Part shown: piece after piece, positions 3,048 to 9,733 of the stretch
How the letters are laid out: the number at the start of each line of letters is the position of its first letter
Position numbering within the stretch: the first letter of the stretch is position 1
Assembly (NCBI GenBank): GCA_022447525.1
Contig: JAKVBA010000001.1
Coordinates: 1-41,470, forward strand
Length of the DNA stretch: 41,470 bases
Origin: Gammaproteobacteria bacterium
GTDB lineage: Bacteria; Pseudomonadota; Gammaproteobacteria; Arenicellales; Arenicellaceae
Direction of reading: 5' to 3'
Notes under the pieces: model-generated
The model's database searches: none
Told to the model about the DNA's origin: nothing
Seen by the model: only the letters and a program-made list of their open reading frames with translations
Program-made: the position numbers and the translations under genes

Positions 3048-5204
3048 TTAAACGTCTATTATCTGCTCTGGGATGAATCTGTCTGCTTGATCTTTTGGAA
3101 GCTCTTTTGTTGATTCAACAATCGCATTAATCGGTAACTGGGCTCCCTTGCGAACAAATGCACAAATTTGATTCAATGCGAGTACCTCTGTGTATACGTC
3201 ACCTCCTTGGATAATATCGCAAGCTTTTAAGTAGTCGTTTTCGATCAAGGTGTTCTCACTTAAACGCACCCATTCACCTTTTGGTAGGTAATATTCGATG
3301 CATCCGTTTTTCTGAAAACAAGGAACTACTAATATATCCGAGCCAAACATAAACTGATTCTCAAACCCCCACGCCTGCTTCTGTTGAGGAAAGGCAAGGA
3401 CCATTGGACGCTGAACAGGGAGGCCAGATTGTGTGGCTTCGTACATCACATTTTGTAAATACGTTTGTAGTTGGTATCTCAGTTTTAAGGCGTCGTTTGC
3501 TGCTTTTTCGGCCTCTGGTGAGTATGACCATGGTTCTCTCTCACCTATTCCGTGCAAGCGATAATGAGCTGAGAAAACCGCCGCCTGGGCCCAACGAACA
3601 TACAGCGCATCATCACGGGTGTCTTTATAAAAACCGCCGATATCAGTTGCATAGAAAGGCGCTCCGGTGAGACCCCAAGACAGACCGCCTCGAATATTAC
3701 CCATCATGCCTTCCCAATCCGCCTGTGGATCACCACCCCATTGACTATTGAACCGTTGACTTCCTATCCATGCTGAGCGACTAAAAAGAAAAGGACCTGA
3801 TTTACAATATTTTTGAGCTGCTTGATAAACACAGCGATTGTATAAATGTGCGTAAACATTATGTAGAGCCATACCGGATTCGCCATTGGACGCAACCATG
3901 TTTTCGTCTTCAAGCTGCTCGCCAAAATCGGCTTTAATCATATCAACGCCCATTTCAAACAACTCTTGATGCGCTTCCAACCAAAAATCGTAAGCATCAG
4001 CATGAGTAAAATCCACGATTCCTGATCTTGGCAACTGTGTTAGTACCTGCCCAAAAGCTTGTTGATCCCAATCATATTCATAGGCAGTACCGCTACGTTT
4101 GTCCTTTAGTAGCCAACCTCTCTCTGCGAACATAGAAAACCAGTCGTGCTTTACGGAGATTAAAGGATATTCCCAGACACAAATCTTGAAATTCATCCGT
4201 TTTAATTCGTCGAGAACGGCTTTTGGATCAGGCCAACGGGTCTTATCCCATTCAAACGCAAACCGAGTATCGGTGTCTTGCCAAGCTCTGCCGTCAATTG
4301 TTATGGTATCGCACGGCATGTTTTTAGCGCGAACTTGTCGAGCAACCGCCAATAGCTCGTCTGGATCTTTATAATACGCCTTCGAGAGTATGGCTCCGCC
4401 ACTCCAAGAGGGCGGCATTGGCGCACGACCAGTTAGTTTTGTTACAGAGCGAATCATCGCCGCGCCTATATTTTTCTCTTGATCTGGTAACTCAAGAAAC
4501 AGGAATATGTCTAAATGCTGATCTTCGATTAAACAACAATAAGAGCGCTGTGACCAATTCGGACTGCCAACCGCATGAGTAACAATCGCAGGCGTATGCG
4601 CGAAAATACCCCACCCCTCTGGACTCCAGCAAAACGGAAAATTTTTATAGGAAATTTCGGCATTAACGCCCAGAGCATCACTGTTATAAGAGCGCAGTAG
4701 CTGACCTCTCTTATTTAACGGCCCCCATTTTTCCCCTAGACCGTAAACCGGCTCATTTGACTTCAGATCACAACAGAACAACCAGCCTTTATCGGTTTTA
4801 CTTAGCGGTGGAATTCTGTGTTTGCGTACAAAATGTCCATCTGTAGGGGATTGTGCTATTACCTCTGCGGTATTTGCCGAGCATGCTTTGAAGCTCAATG
4901 GAAAATAGCTGAGATCTATTCTGAAATCACCAGCATTGATTAAAGCTTGTTCATCACCTATTTCAGCCGATAGCTTCAATGGACGAATATGTTCAATCAA
5001 TAATCCGTAATCGTACTCGCGCTGGCTTTTTGTAAACAACCTTAAGCCATTTTCAAATACTTGCAGCACTAGTGTTCCATGTTCGGTATCTAATCTTAGA
5101 CTGTGTTCGTTCAGCAGCACAGGCTTTTCAGAAAGAACTAATGCATCAACCTCGCCCCAATCTGGTGCTTGTAAATAGTCGTGCCGCGACGATATAAAAT
5201 TCAT
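3048..5204 (-). CDS. Glycoside hydrolase family 31 alpha-glycosidase (YicI-like)
   Basis: This 718-residue protein has a beta-sandwich N-terminal part (to about 260), a TIM barrel (about 265-590) and C-terminal beta domains. The GH31 nucleophile is D426 in KADFGE and the acid/base is D492 in QWGGD; SYKNFPF at 185-191 and FEWD at 317-320 are also typical. It should hydrolyse an alpha-glycoside with retention. No signal peptide is visible, so it is probably cytoplasmic and acts after uptake. Overall it aligns best with alpha-xylosidase/alpha-glucosidase YicI. The sulfoquinovosidase residues of E. coli YihQ (Q262, Q288, R301, W304) appear to be replaced: the stretch after strand 2 reads DGRAWQDTDTRFAFEW. 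The start ATG lies 9 bp after the GntR stop, with no clear ribosome binding site, suggesting translational coupling. The substrate is unknown; xyloside, glucoside and a modified sugar all remain possible. Confidence 0.9.
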   Translation of the reverse strand: MNFISSRHDYLQAPDWGEVDALVLSEKPVLLNEHSLRLDTEHGTLVLQVFENGLRLFTKSQREYDYGLLIEHIRPLKLSAEIGDEQALINAGDFRIDLSYFPLSFKACSANTAEVIAQSPTDGHFVRKHRIPPLSKTDKGWLFCCDLKSNEPVYGLGEKWGPLNKRGQLLRSYNSDALGVNAEISYKNFPFCWSPEGWGIFAHTPAIVTHAVGSPNWSQRSYCCLIEDQHLDIFLFLELPDQEKNIGAAMIRSVTKLTGRAPMPPSWSGGAILSKAYYKDPDELLAVARQVRAKNMPCDTITIDGRAWQDTDTRFAFEWDKTRWPDPKAVLDELKRMNFKICVWEYPLISVKHDWFSMFAERGWLLKDKRSGTAYEYDWDQQAFGQVLTQLPRSGIVDFTHADAYDFWLEAHQELFEMGVDMIKADFGEQLEDENMVASNGESGMALHNVYAHLYNRCVYQAAQKYCKSGPFLFSRSAWIGSQRFNSQWGGDPQADWEGMMGNIRGGLSWGLTGAPFYATDIGGFYKDTRDDALYVRWAQAAVFSAHYRLHGIGEREPWSYSPEAEKAANDALKLRYQLQTYLQNVMYEATQSGLPVQRPMVLAFPQQKQAWGFENQFMFGSDILVVPCFQKNGCIEYYLPKGEWVRLSENTLIENDYLKACDIIQGGDVYTEVLALNQICAFVRKGAQLPINAIVESTKELPKDQADRFIPEQIIDV

Positions 5205-5213
5205 ATGTTTTAA

Positions 5214-5933
5214 TTATTTTAATGATACGGAATAGACGAATTTTTCGGTACTACAGTAGGCCTGACTCCACTCAACAACTCTCCCATCTATATTTATACT
5301 GCTTCTTTCGGTCATTAATGCGGCCTCCCCAGCATTTAATTCCAAATGATTCGCTACCTTCTCATCTAAAATTACTGCGTGTAATTCATCTCTCACTTCA
5401 ACAACAGAAATGCCGTATTTCGATTGATAATAACCGTACAAAGAATTAGGTATTTCGTCTACTTCATCTATGCCCGGGAAAATCGACAGCGGCTGTAGCA
5501 CCATCTCATAAATTGCCGGCCTACCCTTGATCGATCTAACCCTCACCATTTCAGCAACCATAAGGTTCTCTGTTAATCTCAACTTTTTCGCCTCTCGTGC
5601 GCTTGCCTGCCTTGAGGTTAGAGATACAACTTCGGTTTCGGGTATAACACTTTCCCCACCATGTTCCTTGTACCGAAAGAAGCGATACAAAGAATTCTCA
5701 TTATTATGCTCCGAAACGTATGTCCCCTTACCTTGCCTGCGCCGGAGAATATTTTCATCTACTAACTGGTTTAAGGCTTTACGAACAGTGCCTTGACTCA
5801 CTCCTAACTCATCAGCTAGGCCAAACTCACTGGGCAAAGAGTCTCCAGCTTTCCAGTAGCCCTCGCTAAGTCGTTTCACAATTTCGTCGTAGACCTGCTG
5901 GTACAAAGGCTGATATTTTGTTGATAAAGTCAT
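5214..5933 (-). CDS. GntR/HutC-family transcriptional regulator (UTRA domain)
   Basis: This 239-residue regulator has an N-terminal winged helix-turn-helix (about 8-75) with the GntR signatures SLPSEFGLADELGVSQGTVR and RRRQGKGTYV. A C-terminal UTRA ligand-binding domain (about 90-239) includes the usual REVRDELHA-like segment (VEVRDELHAV). HutC-type GntR proteins are usually repressors of sugar or amino-acid catabolism that release DNA when they bind a pathway metabolite, often a phosphosugar. It is the first gene of the leftward operon. A 412-bp control region separates it from the reductase/dioxygenase pair, so it probably represses both directions through the dyads there. A GAGGG just upstream of ATG 5933 could serve as the ribosome binding site. 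Confidence 0.92.
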   Translation of the reverse strand: MTLSTKYQPLYQQVYDEIVKRLSEGYWKAGDSLPSEFGLADELGVSQGTVRKALNQLVDENILRRRQGKGTYVSEHNNENSLYRFFRYKEHGGESVIPETEVVSLTSRQASAREAKKLRLTENLMVAEMVRVRSIKGRPAIYEMVLQPLSIFPGIDEVDEIPNSLYGYYQSKYGISVVEVRDELHAVILDEKVANHLELNAGEAALMTERSSINIDGRVVEWSQAYCSTEKFVYSVSLK

Positions 5934-6066: not shown

Positions 6067-6094
6067 TTGAACTGTATCTTATATAAGATACAAT
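6067..6094 (+). promoter_or_regulatory. Predicted sigma70 promoter with operator in the spacer
   Basis: A TTGAAC (-35, 6067-6072) and a TACAAT (-10, 6089-6094) are separated by 16 bases. The 20-bp palindrome at 6073-6092 fills the spacer and enters the -10, so a bound repressor would exclude RNA polymerase. The promoter is read by eye from consensus only. Confidence 0.5.
6073..6092. promoter_or_regulatory. 20-bp perfect palindrome, candidate GntR operator
   Basis: TGTATCTTATATAAGATACA is a perfect 20-bp palindrome. Its GT...AC outer pattern and AT-rich centre suit HutC-type GntR operators. It lies between the regulator gene and the divergent reductase gene, inside a predicted promoter. I infer that the adjacent regulator binds it. 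Confidence 0.65.
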
Positions 6095-6345: not shown

Positions 6346-7314
6346 ATGACAAAAAAGAGTGATCGTAAAATTCCTTCTGTAGGTTTTGGCATGTGGAAAA
6401 TAGCAGAGGATGATTGCGCTGCTAGCGTATACAAAGCCATTAAGCTTGGTTATAGACATCTTGACAGCGCTAGCGACTATGGCAATGAAGTTCAGGTTGG
6501 AGAAGGTATAAAACACGCTATTGATGACGGCTTATGTAGGCGCGAAGACCTCTGGGTAACTTCTAAATTATGGAATACATATCATGCTAAAGAGCACGTT
6601 GGGCCCGCTCTGCAAAAAACACTGGACGATTTACAACTCGATTATCTTGATCTTTACCTAATCCATTTTCCAATCGCTCAACGTTACGTTGATTTTAAAG
6701 AACGCTATCCAGCTGGGTGGTTTTTCGACCCAGATGTTGACGAACCGAGAATGCATCTTGAAAAAGTCCCTTTGCATGAAACTTGGTCAGCAATGGAAGA
6801 ACAATATCAAAATGGTCTGACGCATCGGATTGGTGTCTGTAACTATAATACTGGCTTAATGCACGATTTGCTCTCTTACGCGAAAATCAAACCAGCCATG
6901 TTGCAAATAGAATCCCATCCATACCTCACTCAGGAAGCTTTACTAAGACTTTGCAAAATGAATGATATTGCAGTTACTGCCTTTTCTCCACTCGGTGCTC
7001 TCTCCTACCTAGAACTGGATATGGCGAACGAAACCGAAAGCGTCTTGGAACAACCAGTTGTTGTAGCAGCTGCTAAACGACTTGGAAAAACCCCCGCTCA
7101 GATCGTACTTCGCTGGGGTGTTCAGCGCGGAACAACAATTATTCCAAAGTCAACCAAAGAACATCGAATGATTGAAAACGCGGACCTTTTTAATTTTGAA
7201 TTATCAGAAAGGGAAATGACTGAGATCAGTGCATTAAATCAAAATAGACGCTTCAATGATCCTGGTGTTTTTTGCGAAGCTGCGTTCAACCGTTTTCATC
7301 CAATATACGACTAG
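6346..7314 (+). CDS. Aldo/keto reductase, xylose-reductase-like
   Basis: This is a 322-residue NAD(P)H-dependent TIM-barrel reductase. The AKR tetrad is visible as D40, Y45, K74 (TSKLW) and H107 (LIHFP). The C-terminal IIPKSTKEHR segment is the usual cofactor loop; its Lys and Arg suggest NADPH. A long loop, RYPAGWFFDP (about 120-129), recalls aldose/xylose reductases of the AKR2 group. It should reduce a sugar aldehyde or free aldose. With the dioxygenase 38 bp downstream it probably forms a two-gene operon, and it may reduce an aldehyde made by that enzyme. The start ATG at 6346 has no clear ribosome binding site; an 18-codon frame (6293-6349) ends on it as ATGA, so coupling is possible. 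Confidence 0.92.
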   Translation: MTKKSDRKIPSVGFGMWKIAEDDCAASVYKAIKLGYRHLDSASDYGNEVQVGEGIKHAIDDGLCRREDLWVTSKLWNTYHAKEHVGPALQKTLDDLQLDYLDLYLIHFPIAQRYVDFKERYPAGWFFDPDVDEPRMHLEKVPLHETWSAMEEQYQNGLTHRIGVCNYNTGLMHDLLSYAKIKPAMLQIESHPYLTQEALLRLCKMNDIAVTAFSPLGALSYLELDMANETESVLEQPVVVAAAKRLGKTPAQIVLRWGVQRGTTIIPKSTKEHRMIENADLFNFELSEREMTEISALNQNRRFNDPGVFCEAAFNRFHPIYD

Positions 7315-7352: not shown

Positions 7353-8336
7353 ATGAGTAACAAAATTGAGTTTCAATCGGTTAATAGCCAACTTGTTTTT
7401 GATGAAGGTGTTTTTCCTTTAGTGGTTACACCCCCACAAGCAAATATAACTCTGGAACAATCCAAGCAGTGGATCAGGGATAATCTCCATACTCTTGAAC
7501 TTGAACTTGCTAGAGCCGGCGCGATTTTGTTTCGCGGCTTTCCTATGGACAGTGCAGAGACCTTCGATGAATTTTCAGCGGCGTTTGATTACCCAAGTTT
7601 TACCTACAAAGAATCGCTTTCGAACGCGGTTAGGATAAATTTCACTGAGCGAGTCTTTACCGCCAATGAAGCGCCAAAAGACGTAGAGATATATCTTCAC
7701 CATGAAATGGCACAAACGCCGGTATCGCCAGATAAACTCTTCTTTTTTTGCAAGTCTGCGGCCGAGCAAGGTGGCGCAACTCCTATCTGTAGGTCAGACA
7801 AGCTCTACCAAGCTCTGAAAGATCGAGATTCAGAATTGGCCTTGGAGTTTTTTGACAAGGGTCTAAAATACACCACTCATATGCCATTCGAAGATAATCA
7901 TGCGTCAGGCCAGGGCAGAAGCTGGAAAGGAACTTTGAGCGTAGAAACACAAGCCGAGGCTGAGAAAAAGCTGGCTCAATTAGGGTACTCTTGGGAGTGG
8001 ATGAGCGATAAAAGCTTGAAAGCCATTACACCAGTATTGCCAGCTGTACGCACCTTAGAAAATGGCACTGACGTTTTTTATAATCAGCTGGTAGCTGCTT
8101 ATCTAGGATGGAAGGGAGTAAAAGAGGAGCCCTCAAAGGCCATCACCTTTGGTGATGATTCTCATATTTCCGTTGAGGCCCTTGATTTGGTCGTATCTTT
8201 ATCTCGAGAGTTTACCTTTGACCTTCAATGGCAAGATGGCGATATGGCCCTGATAGACAATAAAATGACCATGCATGGCCGTCGCCCCTTTGCTGGAGAA
8301 CGCAAGCGTCAAGTTTTGGTAGCATTAGCTGCTTAG
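7353..8336 (+). CDS. Fe(II)/2-oxoglutarate-dependent dioxygenase (TauD/TfdA superfamily, SyrP-like)
   Basis: This 327-residue enzyme belongs to the clavaminate-synthase-like branch that includes SyrP and the plant protein At3g21360. It shares RVFTANE, LHHEMAQ and RRPF with that branch. The iron ligands should be H116 and E118 (HHEMAQ) and the distal H308 (MHGRRPF), with R319 as the likely 2-oxoglutarate anchor. The acidic ligand is Glu instead of the usual Asp, as in At3g21360. Such enzymes use O2 and 2-oxoglutarate to hydroxylate a carbon; if that carbon bears a sulfonate or similar group, an aldehyde is released. A GAGGAC ribosome binding site precedes ATG 7353. Being paired with a sugar reductase and a glycosidase, it probably acts on a sugar. 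The substrate is not known. Confidence 0.9.
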   Translation: MSNKIEFQSVNSQLVFDEGVFPLVVTPPQANITLEQSKQWIRDNLHTLELELARAGAILFRGFPMDSAETFDEFSAAFDYPSFTYKESLSNAVRINFTERVFTANEAPKDVEIYLHHEMAQTPVSPDKLFFFCKSAAEQGGATPICRSDKLYQALKDRDSELALEFFDKGLKYTTHMPFEDNHASGQGRSWKGTLSVETQAEAEKKLAQLGYSWEWMSDKSLKAITPVLPAVRTLENGTDVFYNQLVAAYLGWKGVKEEPSKAITFGDDSHISVEALDLVVSLSREFTFDLQWQDGDMALIDNKMTMHGRRPFAGERKRQVLVALAA

Positions 8337-8440: not shown

Positions 8441-9733
8441 TTAATCTGTTGGTGTTTTTTGAAGAGCTGCAAGAAAAAAGCCATCCGTTCCAGTTTTGCT
8501 GGGGTAGGTCCTTAGTTGTGAGGCGCTAACGTCTAACAAAGATTGATCAAAATCTAAATCACTAAAATAATCTGGCATAGCTTTGAAAGCCTCATGGTTT
8601 GATAGGAATCGTTCCACCTGCTTTTCATTTTCATCTGTCAACAAGGAGCAAGTGGCGTATAGCAAAACCCCACCAGACTTTACCAGTCTTTGCGCACTGC
8701 GTAGTATCGAATACTGCGTATCGAGCAGGTTTTCCAAATCCGCTTGCGTTAAATTCCATCTACTATCTGGGCTTCTTCGCCAGGTTCCAGTTCCAGAGCA
8801 TGGTGCATCTATCAACACAACATCCGCAGCTCCTTGATGCTTCTTTACCCATTTATCATTTTCGGAACTCAGCACATGAGTTCGCACATTGTGTACCCCC
8901 GCCCTTCTTGTACGCTTGCTCAGTTGCGCTAATCGCTTAGAATGAACATCACAGGCGTAAATAGTCCCCTTATTTTGCATCATAGCCGCCATAGCTAATG
9001 TCTTGCCGCCAGCGCCAGCGCAAAAGTCGACTACCTTTTGACTTGGTTTAACCTTGCTAACCAAAGCCAAGAGCTGAGAACCTTCATCTTGTACTTCAAT
9101 CCAACCGTCTTTGAATGCTTGGGTTCCAAAAAGCGCAACTCTTTTATCAAAGCGCAGCCCCCACGGAGATATGGGTGTCTTTTGCGGGCACAAATTTACC
9201 TTTTTCAGAAAGTGGCTCACTTGCTTTACTGTACTTTTTAGTGTGTTTACTCTTATATCTGTTGTAGCTTGCTCATTCGAAGCTCTCATTTCTGATTCGT
9301 ACATATCACCCAAGGAATGTTGCAGTCTTTCCTGCAACCATTCCGGCACGTTTAACTGTACAAACAGCGGTGCATCACTCAAATCAGCAAAATCAATCAA
9401 ATCGATGGCTTTTTTATCGGACTCAGACAAGGGCTTCGGGCCATGACCTTGACCATTAAAATAACTGTCAGTTCTGAGCCCGAGATGCCTTAGTAGTACG
9501 GCTCCCAGGCGTCTGCTATTGGGAGGAATGCCTACCTTATTTAGTAAGTAGCCAAAACAAAGCTTGTTTCGTAAGATCAAATAGAAATATTCAGATATAA
9601 CCGCCTTGTCCTTAGAACCTATGTAGCGCCTGTGCTTAAAGTAGTTTGCCATCGTGCGATCCGCTGGGTAAGCGCGATCAGAAATCTCATCAAGTAATTC
9701 GATGACGGCTTGTATTTGTGCTGGTGCTTGCAT
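8441..9733 (-). CDS. RsmB/NOP-family RNA (cytosine-5)-methyltransferase
   Basis: This 430-residue protein has an N-terminal NusB-like helical region (about 1-145) and a C-terminal Rossmann methyltransferase. The SAM loop is VVDFCAGAGGKT (234-245). The two catalytic cysteines of the m5C class are C312 in APCSGTG and C362 in ATCSLL. It should methylate a cytosine in rRNA, probably 16S, using SAM. The family is firm, but whether it equals RsmB or a paralogue with another target cannot be told from sequence alone. It faces the dioxygenase gene tail to tail and is a stand-alone gene. ATG 9733 has no clear ribosome binding site. Confidence 0.88.
   Translation of the reverse strand: MQAPAQIQAVIELLDEISDRAYPADRTMANYFKHRRYIGSKDKAVISEYFYLILRNKLCFGYLLNKVGIPPNSRRLGAVLLRHLGLRTDSYFNGQGHGPKPLSESDKKAIDLIDFADLSDAPLFVQLNVPEWLQERLQHSLGDMYESEMRASNEQATTDIRVNTLKSTVKQVSHFLKKVNLCPQKTPISPWGLRFDKRVALFGTQAFKDGWIEVQDEGSQLLALVSKVKPSQKVVDFCAGAGGKTLAMAAMMQNKGTIYACDVHSKRLAQLSKRTRRAGVHNVRTHVLSSENDKWVKKHQGAADVVLIDAPCSGTGTWRRSPDSRWNLTQADLENLLDTQYSILRSAQRLVKSGGVLLYATCSLLTDENEKQVERFLSNHEAFKAMPDYFSDLDFDQSLLDVSASQLRTYPSKTGTDGFFLAALQKTPTD

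Follow-up and report, generated by a model that had tools for sequence, protein, structure and literature searches.

The gene at positions 7353 to 8336 (+ strand) of the window, by which we mean the whole 41,470-nucleotide stretch of DNA analyzed here, very probably encodes a SqoD-type sulfoquinovose dioxygenase of the sulfo-ASDO/sulfo-SDO pathway. Sulfoquinovose is a sulfur-containing sugar that is abundant in the membranes of plants and algae, and the characterized SqoD reportedly comes from Marinobacterium aestuarii. The pathway was published in 2023 by Ye et al., as described in PMC12890257, PMC13372026, and PMC12330013; in the account of PMC12890257, SqoD is Fe/2-oxoglutarate dependent, is paired with SquF, and converts sulfoquinovose to 6-dehydroglucose and sulfite, while SquF converts 6-dehydroglucose to glucose. 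The window gene was assigned to this pathway because its pairing with a reductase and the linkage of its relatives to SqgA and to sulfite genes match it, the likeness to SqoD, and the orthology this suggests, being one of gene context and published description, not of sequence. Common to both are an Fe/2-oxoglutarate dioxygenase with a reductase, a sulfoquinovosidase, sulfite handling, and a host range in marine Gammaproteobacteria, including Alteromonadaceae, whereas the window differs in its Arenicella-like host and in its glycosidase, a YicI-like GH31 enzyme and not SqgA or YihQ. The window copy, from an Arenicella-like bacterium, would thus add a member to a pathway whose dioxygenase chemistry was already described in 2023; the unexplored substrate class proposed in an earlier, sequence-only reading has to be given up, as an Fe/2-oxoglutarate sulfoquinovose dioxygenase with like partner genes was in print by that year.

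The dioxygenase open reading frame is intact, begins with ATG, and encodes 327 amino acids. A profile search placed the protein in the TauD family (PF02668; E value, 1.8e-32), and in an alignment with 27 relatives (n = 28) H116, E118, and H308 were invariant, the first two lying within the motif H116-H-E-M-A-Q121. An HxE triad of these residues, with Glu in place of Asp, had been proposed from the letters of the sequence, and it was borne out; as the three residues are invariant in 28 sequences, this reading is not due to chance or misreading. The Asp that supplies the metal carboxylate in TauD proper (HxD) is absent, E118 occupying the position in 28 of 28 sequences. An AlphaFold2 model (mean pLDDT, 91.8; pTM, 0.89) found its best structural match in 1y0z (At3g21360), with a Z score of 40.8 and an rmsd of 1.7 over 316 residues, and the structures that followed scored far lower (next Z, about 22). 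The protein has the fold and the intact metal triad of a TauD-type Fe/2-oxoglutarate dioxygenase. Solved structures close to it in sequence were limited to 1y0z and an uncharacterized recent entry, 9yut. Both carry the HHEMAQ motif, and At3g21360 has the fold of the window enzyme at about 35% identity; however, Y114, R147, Q187, Q245, and an ESLSNAVR loop, all kept in most or all members of the sulfoquinovose-linked dioxygenase clade, are replaced in both. Judged by this conservation, these residues may be the first candidates for sulfonate and sugar binding. The taurine dioxygenase TauD and the alkylsulfatase AtsK have a similar fold (Z, about 21) and presumably share with the window enzyme the oxidative release of a sulfur oxyanion, but their identity to it is only 12 to 17%, and their metal-binding residue is the Asp of HxD.

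A scan of named genomes returned 33 dioxygenase loci (34 including the window) from Arenicella, Pseudoalteromonas, Glaciecola, other Alteromonadaceae, Halieaceae, and Erythrobacteraceae, and no Marinomonas or Marinobacterium orthologues. It was found that an aldo/keto reductase gene adjoins the dioxygenase gene in 30 of the 34 loci, the other neighbors being a GH31 glycosidase (16 loci), a symporter (21), a GntR regulator (15), a TonB receptor (15), a YeiH-type exporter (12), and a GFO/IDH/MocA protein (9). A Pseudomonadales sample of 390 genomes contained 25 with a dioxygenase of the window's clade, and 22 of another 25 loci, almost all from this order, had the reductase next to the dioxygenase; symporter-SqgA-reductase-dioxygenase was the gene order in most Pseudomonadales loci retrieved. 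In the window and its relatives, therefore, the dioxygenase is linked to a candidate 6-dehydroglucose reductase (SquF). The GFO/IDH/MocA protein matched the GH188 sulfoquinovosidase structures 8qc3/8qc2 (about 1e-49), and this enzyme, SqgA, accompanies the dioxygenase in 28 of 59 loci. In the literature, SqgA is present in sulfo-SDO clusters, for example, that of Marinomonas ushuaiensis. In ArSqgA, Arg166, Leu170, Lys172, Glu189, and His193 contact sulfoquinovose, with Arg166 and Lys172 binding the sulfonate and Glu189 and His193 the hydroxyls (PMC10755693); the motifs corresponding to these residues, RxxxLxK for the sulfonate and the catalytic EKCCH, were kept in nine of the nine SqgA copies checked. 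The dioxygenase family is linked to a known sulfoquinovosidase in this way through relatives and not in the window itself.

Some loci depart from this arrangement. In two (L121 and L122), SqgA and the dioxygenase are present, but the reductase usually found between them is missing; a GH36-like gene and another symporter gene lie close by, and a different reductase might serve there. Four loci from marine metagenome-assembled genomes (L045, L046, L048, and L049) encode HHEMAQ-clade dioxygenases of about 50% identity that adjoin genes for an LLM F420-type oxidoreductase, a P450, and a GST, with no reductase nearby. The function of these proteins may have changed, and the four reductase-free loci count against the SqoD reading.

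The window cluster is divergent. On the minus strand lie a sodium:solute symporter of the PRK10484 family (1212 to 2915; NCBIfam E value, 3.7e-215), proposed to take up sulfoquinovose or sulfoquinovosyl glyceride, the GH31 alpha-glycosidase (3048 to 5204), and a GntR/UTRA transcriptional regulator (5214 to 5933; PF00392 and PF07702), while the plus strand carries the aldo/keto reductase, a proposed SquF (6346 to 7314; PF00248; E value, 3.3e-45), and the dioxygenase. The sequence-only reading had described a sugar-catabolism setting with reductase and glycosidase neighbors and had suggested that gene neighbors be tabulated; both neighboring genes are real, and the tabulation above found their linkage to recur in relatives. 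In the divergent promoter region between the GntR and reductase genes, a near-perfect 24-bp palindrome, ACTGTATCTTATATAAGATACAAT (6071 to 6094), overlaps a promoter-like site, and its 20-bp core matches only once in the window, with 0 matches expected. A core of the TATCTTATATAAGATA type is common to the window and L027, L028, L032, and L069; several loci of Arenicella have the core, and others have half of it. From its position and recurrence, the palindrome is a candidate operator for the GntR protein. To judge by their sequence, the genes past position 8441 seem to have housekeeping roles (RNA methyltransferase, small heat-shock protein, RecR, and DnaX).

The GH31 protein of the window is nearest in sequence to YicI, and by fold YicI-like enzymes are also at the top, though many GH31 enzymes score closely. 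Its nucleophile and acid/base are assigned to D426 and D492; the catalytic Asp pair of YihQ (D405 and D472) is matched by Asp in all GH31 proteins of the cluster, and YihQ Q288 is matched by Q309 of the window enzyme, which is invariant. In contrast, YihQ R301, W304, and Y508 are replaced in 16 of 16 cluster GH31 proteins, save for one row with an Arg aligned to R301, and the YicI pocket residues F277, C307, F308, and W315 are replaced by Y, G, A/S, and R, in an alignment whose C6 loop spans gaps and leaves exact residue equivalences uncertain. These replacements rule out a canonical YihQ sulfoquinovosidase, and the pocket of a YicI-type alpha-xylosidase is likewise not present. Compared with both enzymes, the window GH31 alone has R306, which lies in an insertion, and R314, at the position of YicI W315; the two arginines, which lie in the C6 loop, are invariant in 20 GH31 sequences and are absent from YicI, Klebsiella YicI, and BT_0339. 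GH31 and SqgA genes never shared a locus, occurring in 19 and 28 of the 59 loci, respectively, with 0 in common, which suggests that the window GH31 is probably a separate sulfoquinovosidase lineage; this exclusion is to be read as a pattern and not as a probability, because the loci are not independent and the labels follow the tree. We lean toward the view that the YicI-like GH31 and its relatives constitute a second lineage of sulfoquinovosidases within GH31 that evolved independently; it would recognize the sulfonate via R306/R314 and would replace SqgA in the sulfo-SDO operons found in Arenicella, Alteromonadales, and some Pseudomonadales. Marine sulfoquinovosidases are the subject of a 2025 paper in Nature Communications (PMC12780224), which may already describe this lineage. 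A GH31 relative with the same DGRAWQDTRTRF loop was also found in a 1.7-Mb genome (G026; L135:9452-14329), beside TRAP transporter and TonB receptor genes and with no dioxygenase nearby.

A window glycosidase that is not SqgA and lacks the three YihQ residues counts against the SqoD reading, and these features, together with a GntR sequence that diverges between lineages (about 40% median identity), are what might be expected if the dioxygenase desulfonated another sulfosugar or a sulfoquinovose derivative, such as intact sulfoquinovosyl glycerol or sulfofucose, with the GH31 enzyme acting on the matching alpha-glycoside. We regard this as unlikely, since the symporter and reductase of the window have about 64 to 65% median identity to their counterparts in SqgA-type operons, in which the sulfoquinovose motif of SqgA is intact, and the dioxygenases fall in one clade of the tree. 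The symporter, at about 65% median identity to those of SqgA-type operons, suggests a common substrate.

Beside the dioxygenase-reductase pair, different lineages carry four kinds of genes for sulfite or sulfate: YeiH (TIGR00698) and TauE in some relatives, SorA/SorB sulfite dehydrogenase in L035, L039, and L041 (the SorA match, at an E value of 4.7e-70, lies under NCBI's curated cutoff, yet is to the best family), and SulP in L100 to L103. That such sulfite solutions are swapped around an unchanged pair points to sulfite as its product. The sugar-type neighbors in the window (GH31, reductase, symporter, and GntR) would suit an unexplored oxygenase for the hydroxylation of a common, nonsulfonated sugar, but the recurrence of SqgA and of these four kinds of genes beside the pair in relatives makes this very improbable. 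The link of the SqoD-type dioxygenase family to sulfite disposal comes through relatives, and the lack of a sulfite gene in the window cluster counts against the SqoD reading. One YeiH homologue was found in the window genome, outside the cluster; searches of this genome for SorA and for the TonB receptor that neighbors the pair in relatives gave no match at the cutoff used, and the absence of the receptor gene is uninformative because the window starts at a contig end.

Two further observations concern these genes. A variant cluster (L102:10841-18499) contains SulP, GntR, a glycerol-3-phosphate dehydrogenase-like gene, GH31, and a symporter; the dehydrogenase-like gene lies between those for GntR and GH31, which suggests that it could serve glycerol freed from sulfoquinovosyl glycerol. 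The window genome also holds a decayed second dioxygenase (L068:14485-15826; G000:C171:22484-23825, minus strand), of which only the C-terminal part remains, in broken frames and at 44 to 48% identity; it lies immediately upstream of a YeiH-type exporter gene that is intact.

The assignment to a SyrP/At3g21360 group in the sequence-only reading holds in part: no solved structure is closer than At3g21360, but SyrP-type, nonribosomal peptide synthetase (NRPS)-linked proteins form a separate clade (support, 100/100) at about 28 to 30% identity to the window dioxygenase, two rows with long branches making distances within that group unsure. The homologues in plasmid records were distant without exception, with identities below 60% throughout and of about 28 to 33% among the matches listed; those at about 28 to 30% adjoin NRPS genes, and several also adjoin MbtH genes. 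That reading had named consistent linkage of close homologues to peptide or siderophore synthesis as evidence against its sugar setting; only the relatives at about 28 to 30% identity proved to be NRPS linked, and in the neighborhoods of the 59 loci no NRPS gene was recognized beside relatives of more than 45% identity. Hydroxylation of a carrier-bound or free amino acid, as by SyrP, draws on the shared HxE triad, a SyrP-type feature, the TauD fold, and these distant NRPS-linked homologues, but it is scarcely credible for the window enzyme and is ruled out by the tree and the gene neighbors, the NRPS-linked proteins having H-x-E-Q/S/N instead of HHEMAQ.

For the substrate, the product, and the direction of the reductase step of the SqoD-type pathway in the window, we infer the following scheme. 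The symporter would import sulfoquinovosyl glycerol or sulfoquinovose, and the GH31 enzyme would free sulfoquinovose. Using Fe(II) held by H116, E118, and H308, 2-oxoglutarate, and O2, the dioxygenase would hydroxylate C6 of sulfoquinovose, upon which the C-S bond would collapse to give 6-dehydroglucose and sulfite. The aldo/keto reductase would turn 6-dehydroglucose into glucose, which would let the marine host draw on sulfoquinovose as glucose, and the sulfite would be exported or oxidized.

About ten billion tonnes of sulfoquinovose are made each year (PMC10755693), and recycling of its sulfur requires that the C-S bond be broken. With this locus, Arenicella-like marine bacteria join the users of a sulfoquinovose dioxygenase, the HHEMAQ branch of the HxE dioxygenases is connected with C-S cleavage, and Y114, R147, Q187, and Q245 stand out as clade-specific candidate residues. 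The possibly new element is the GH31 enzyme, an atypical glycosidase that may represent a new kind of sulfoquinovose-releasing enzyme; if it is indeed a sulfoquinovosidase, such genes escape any survey restricted to YihQ and SqgA.
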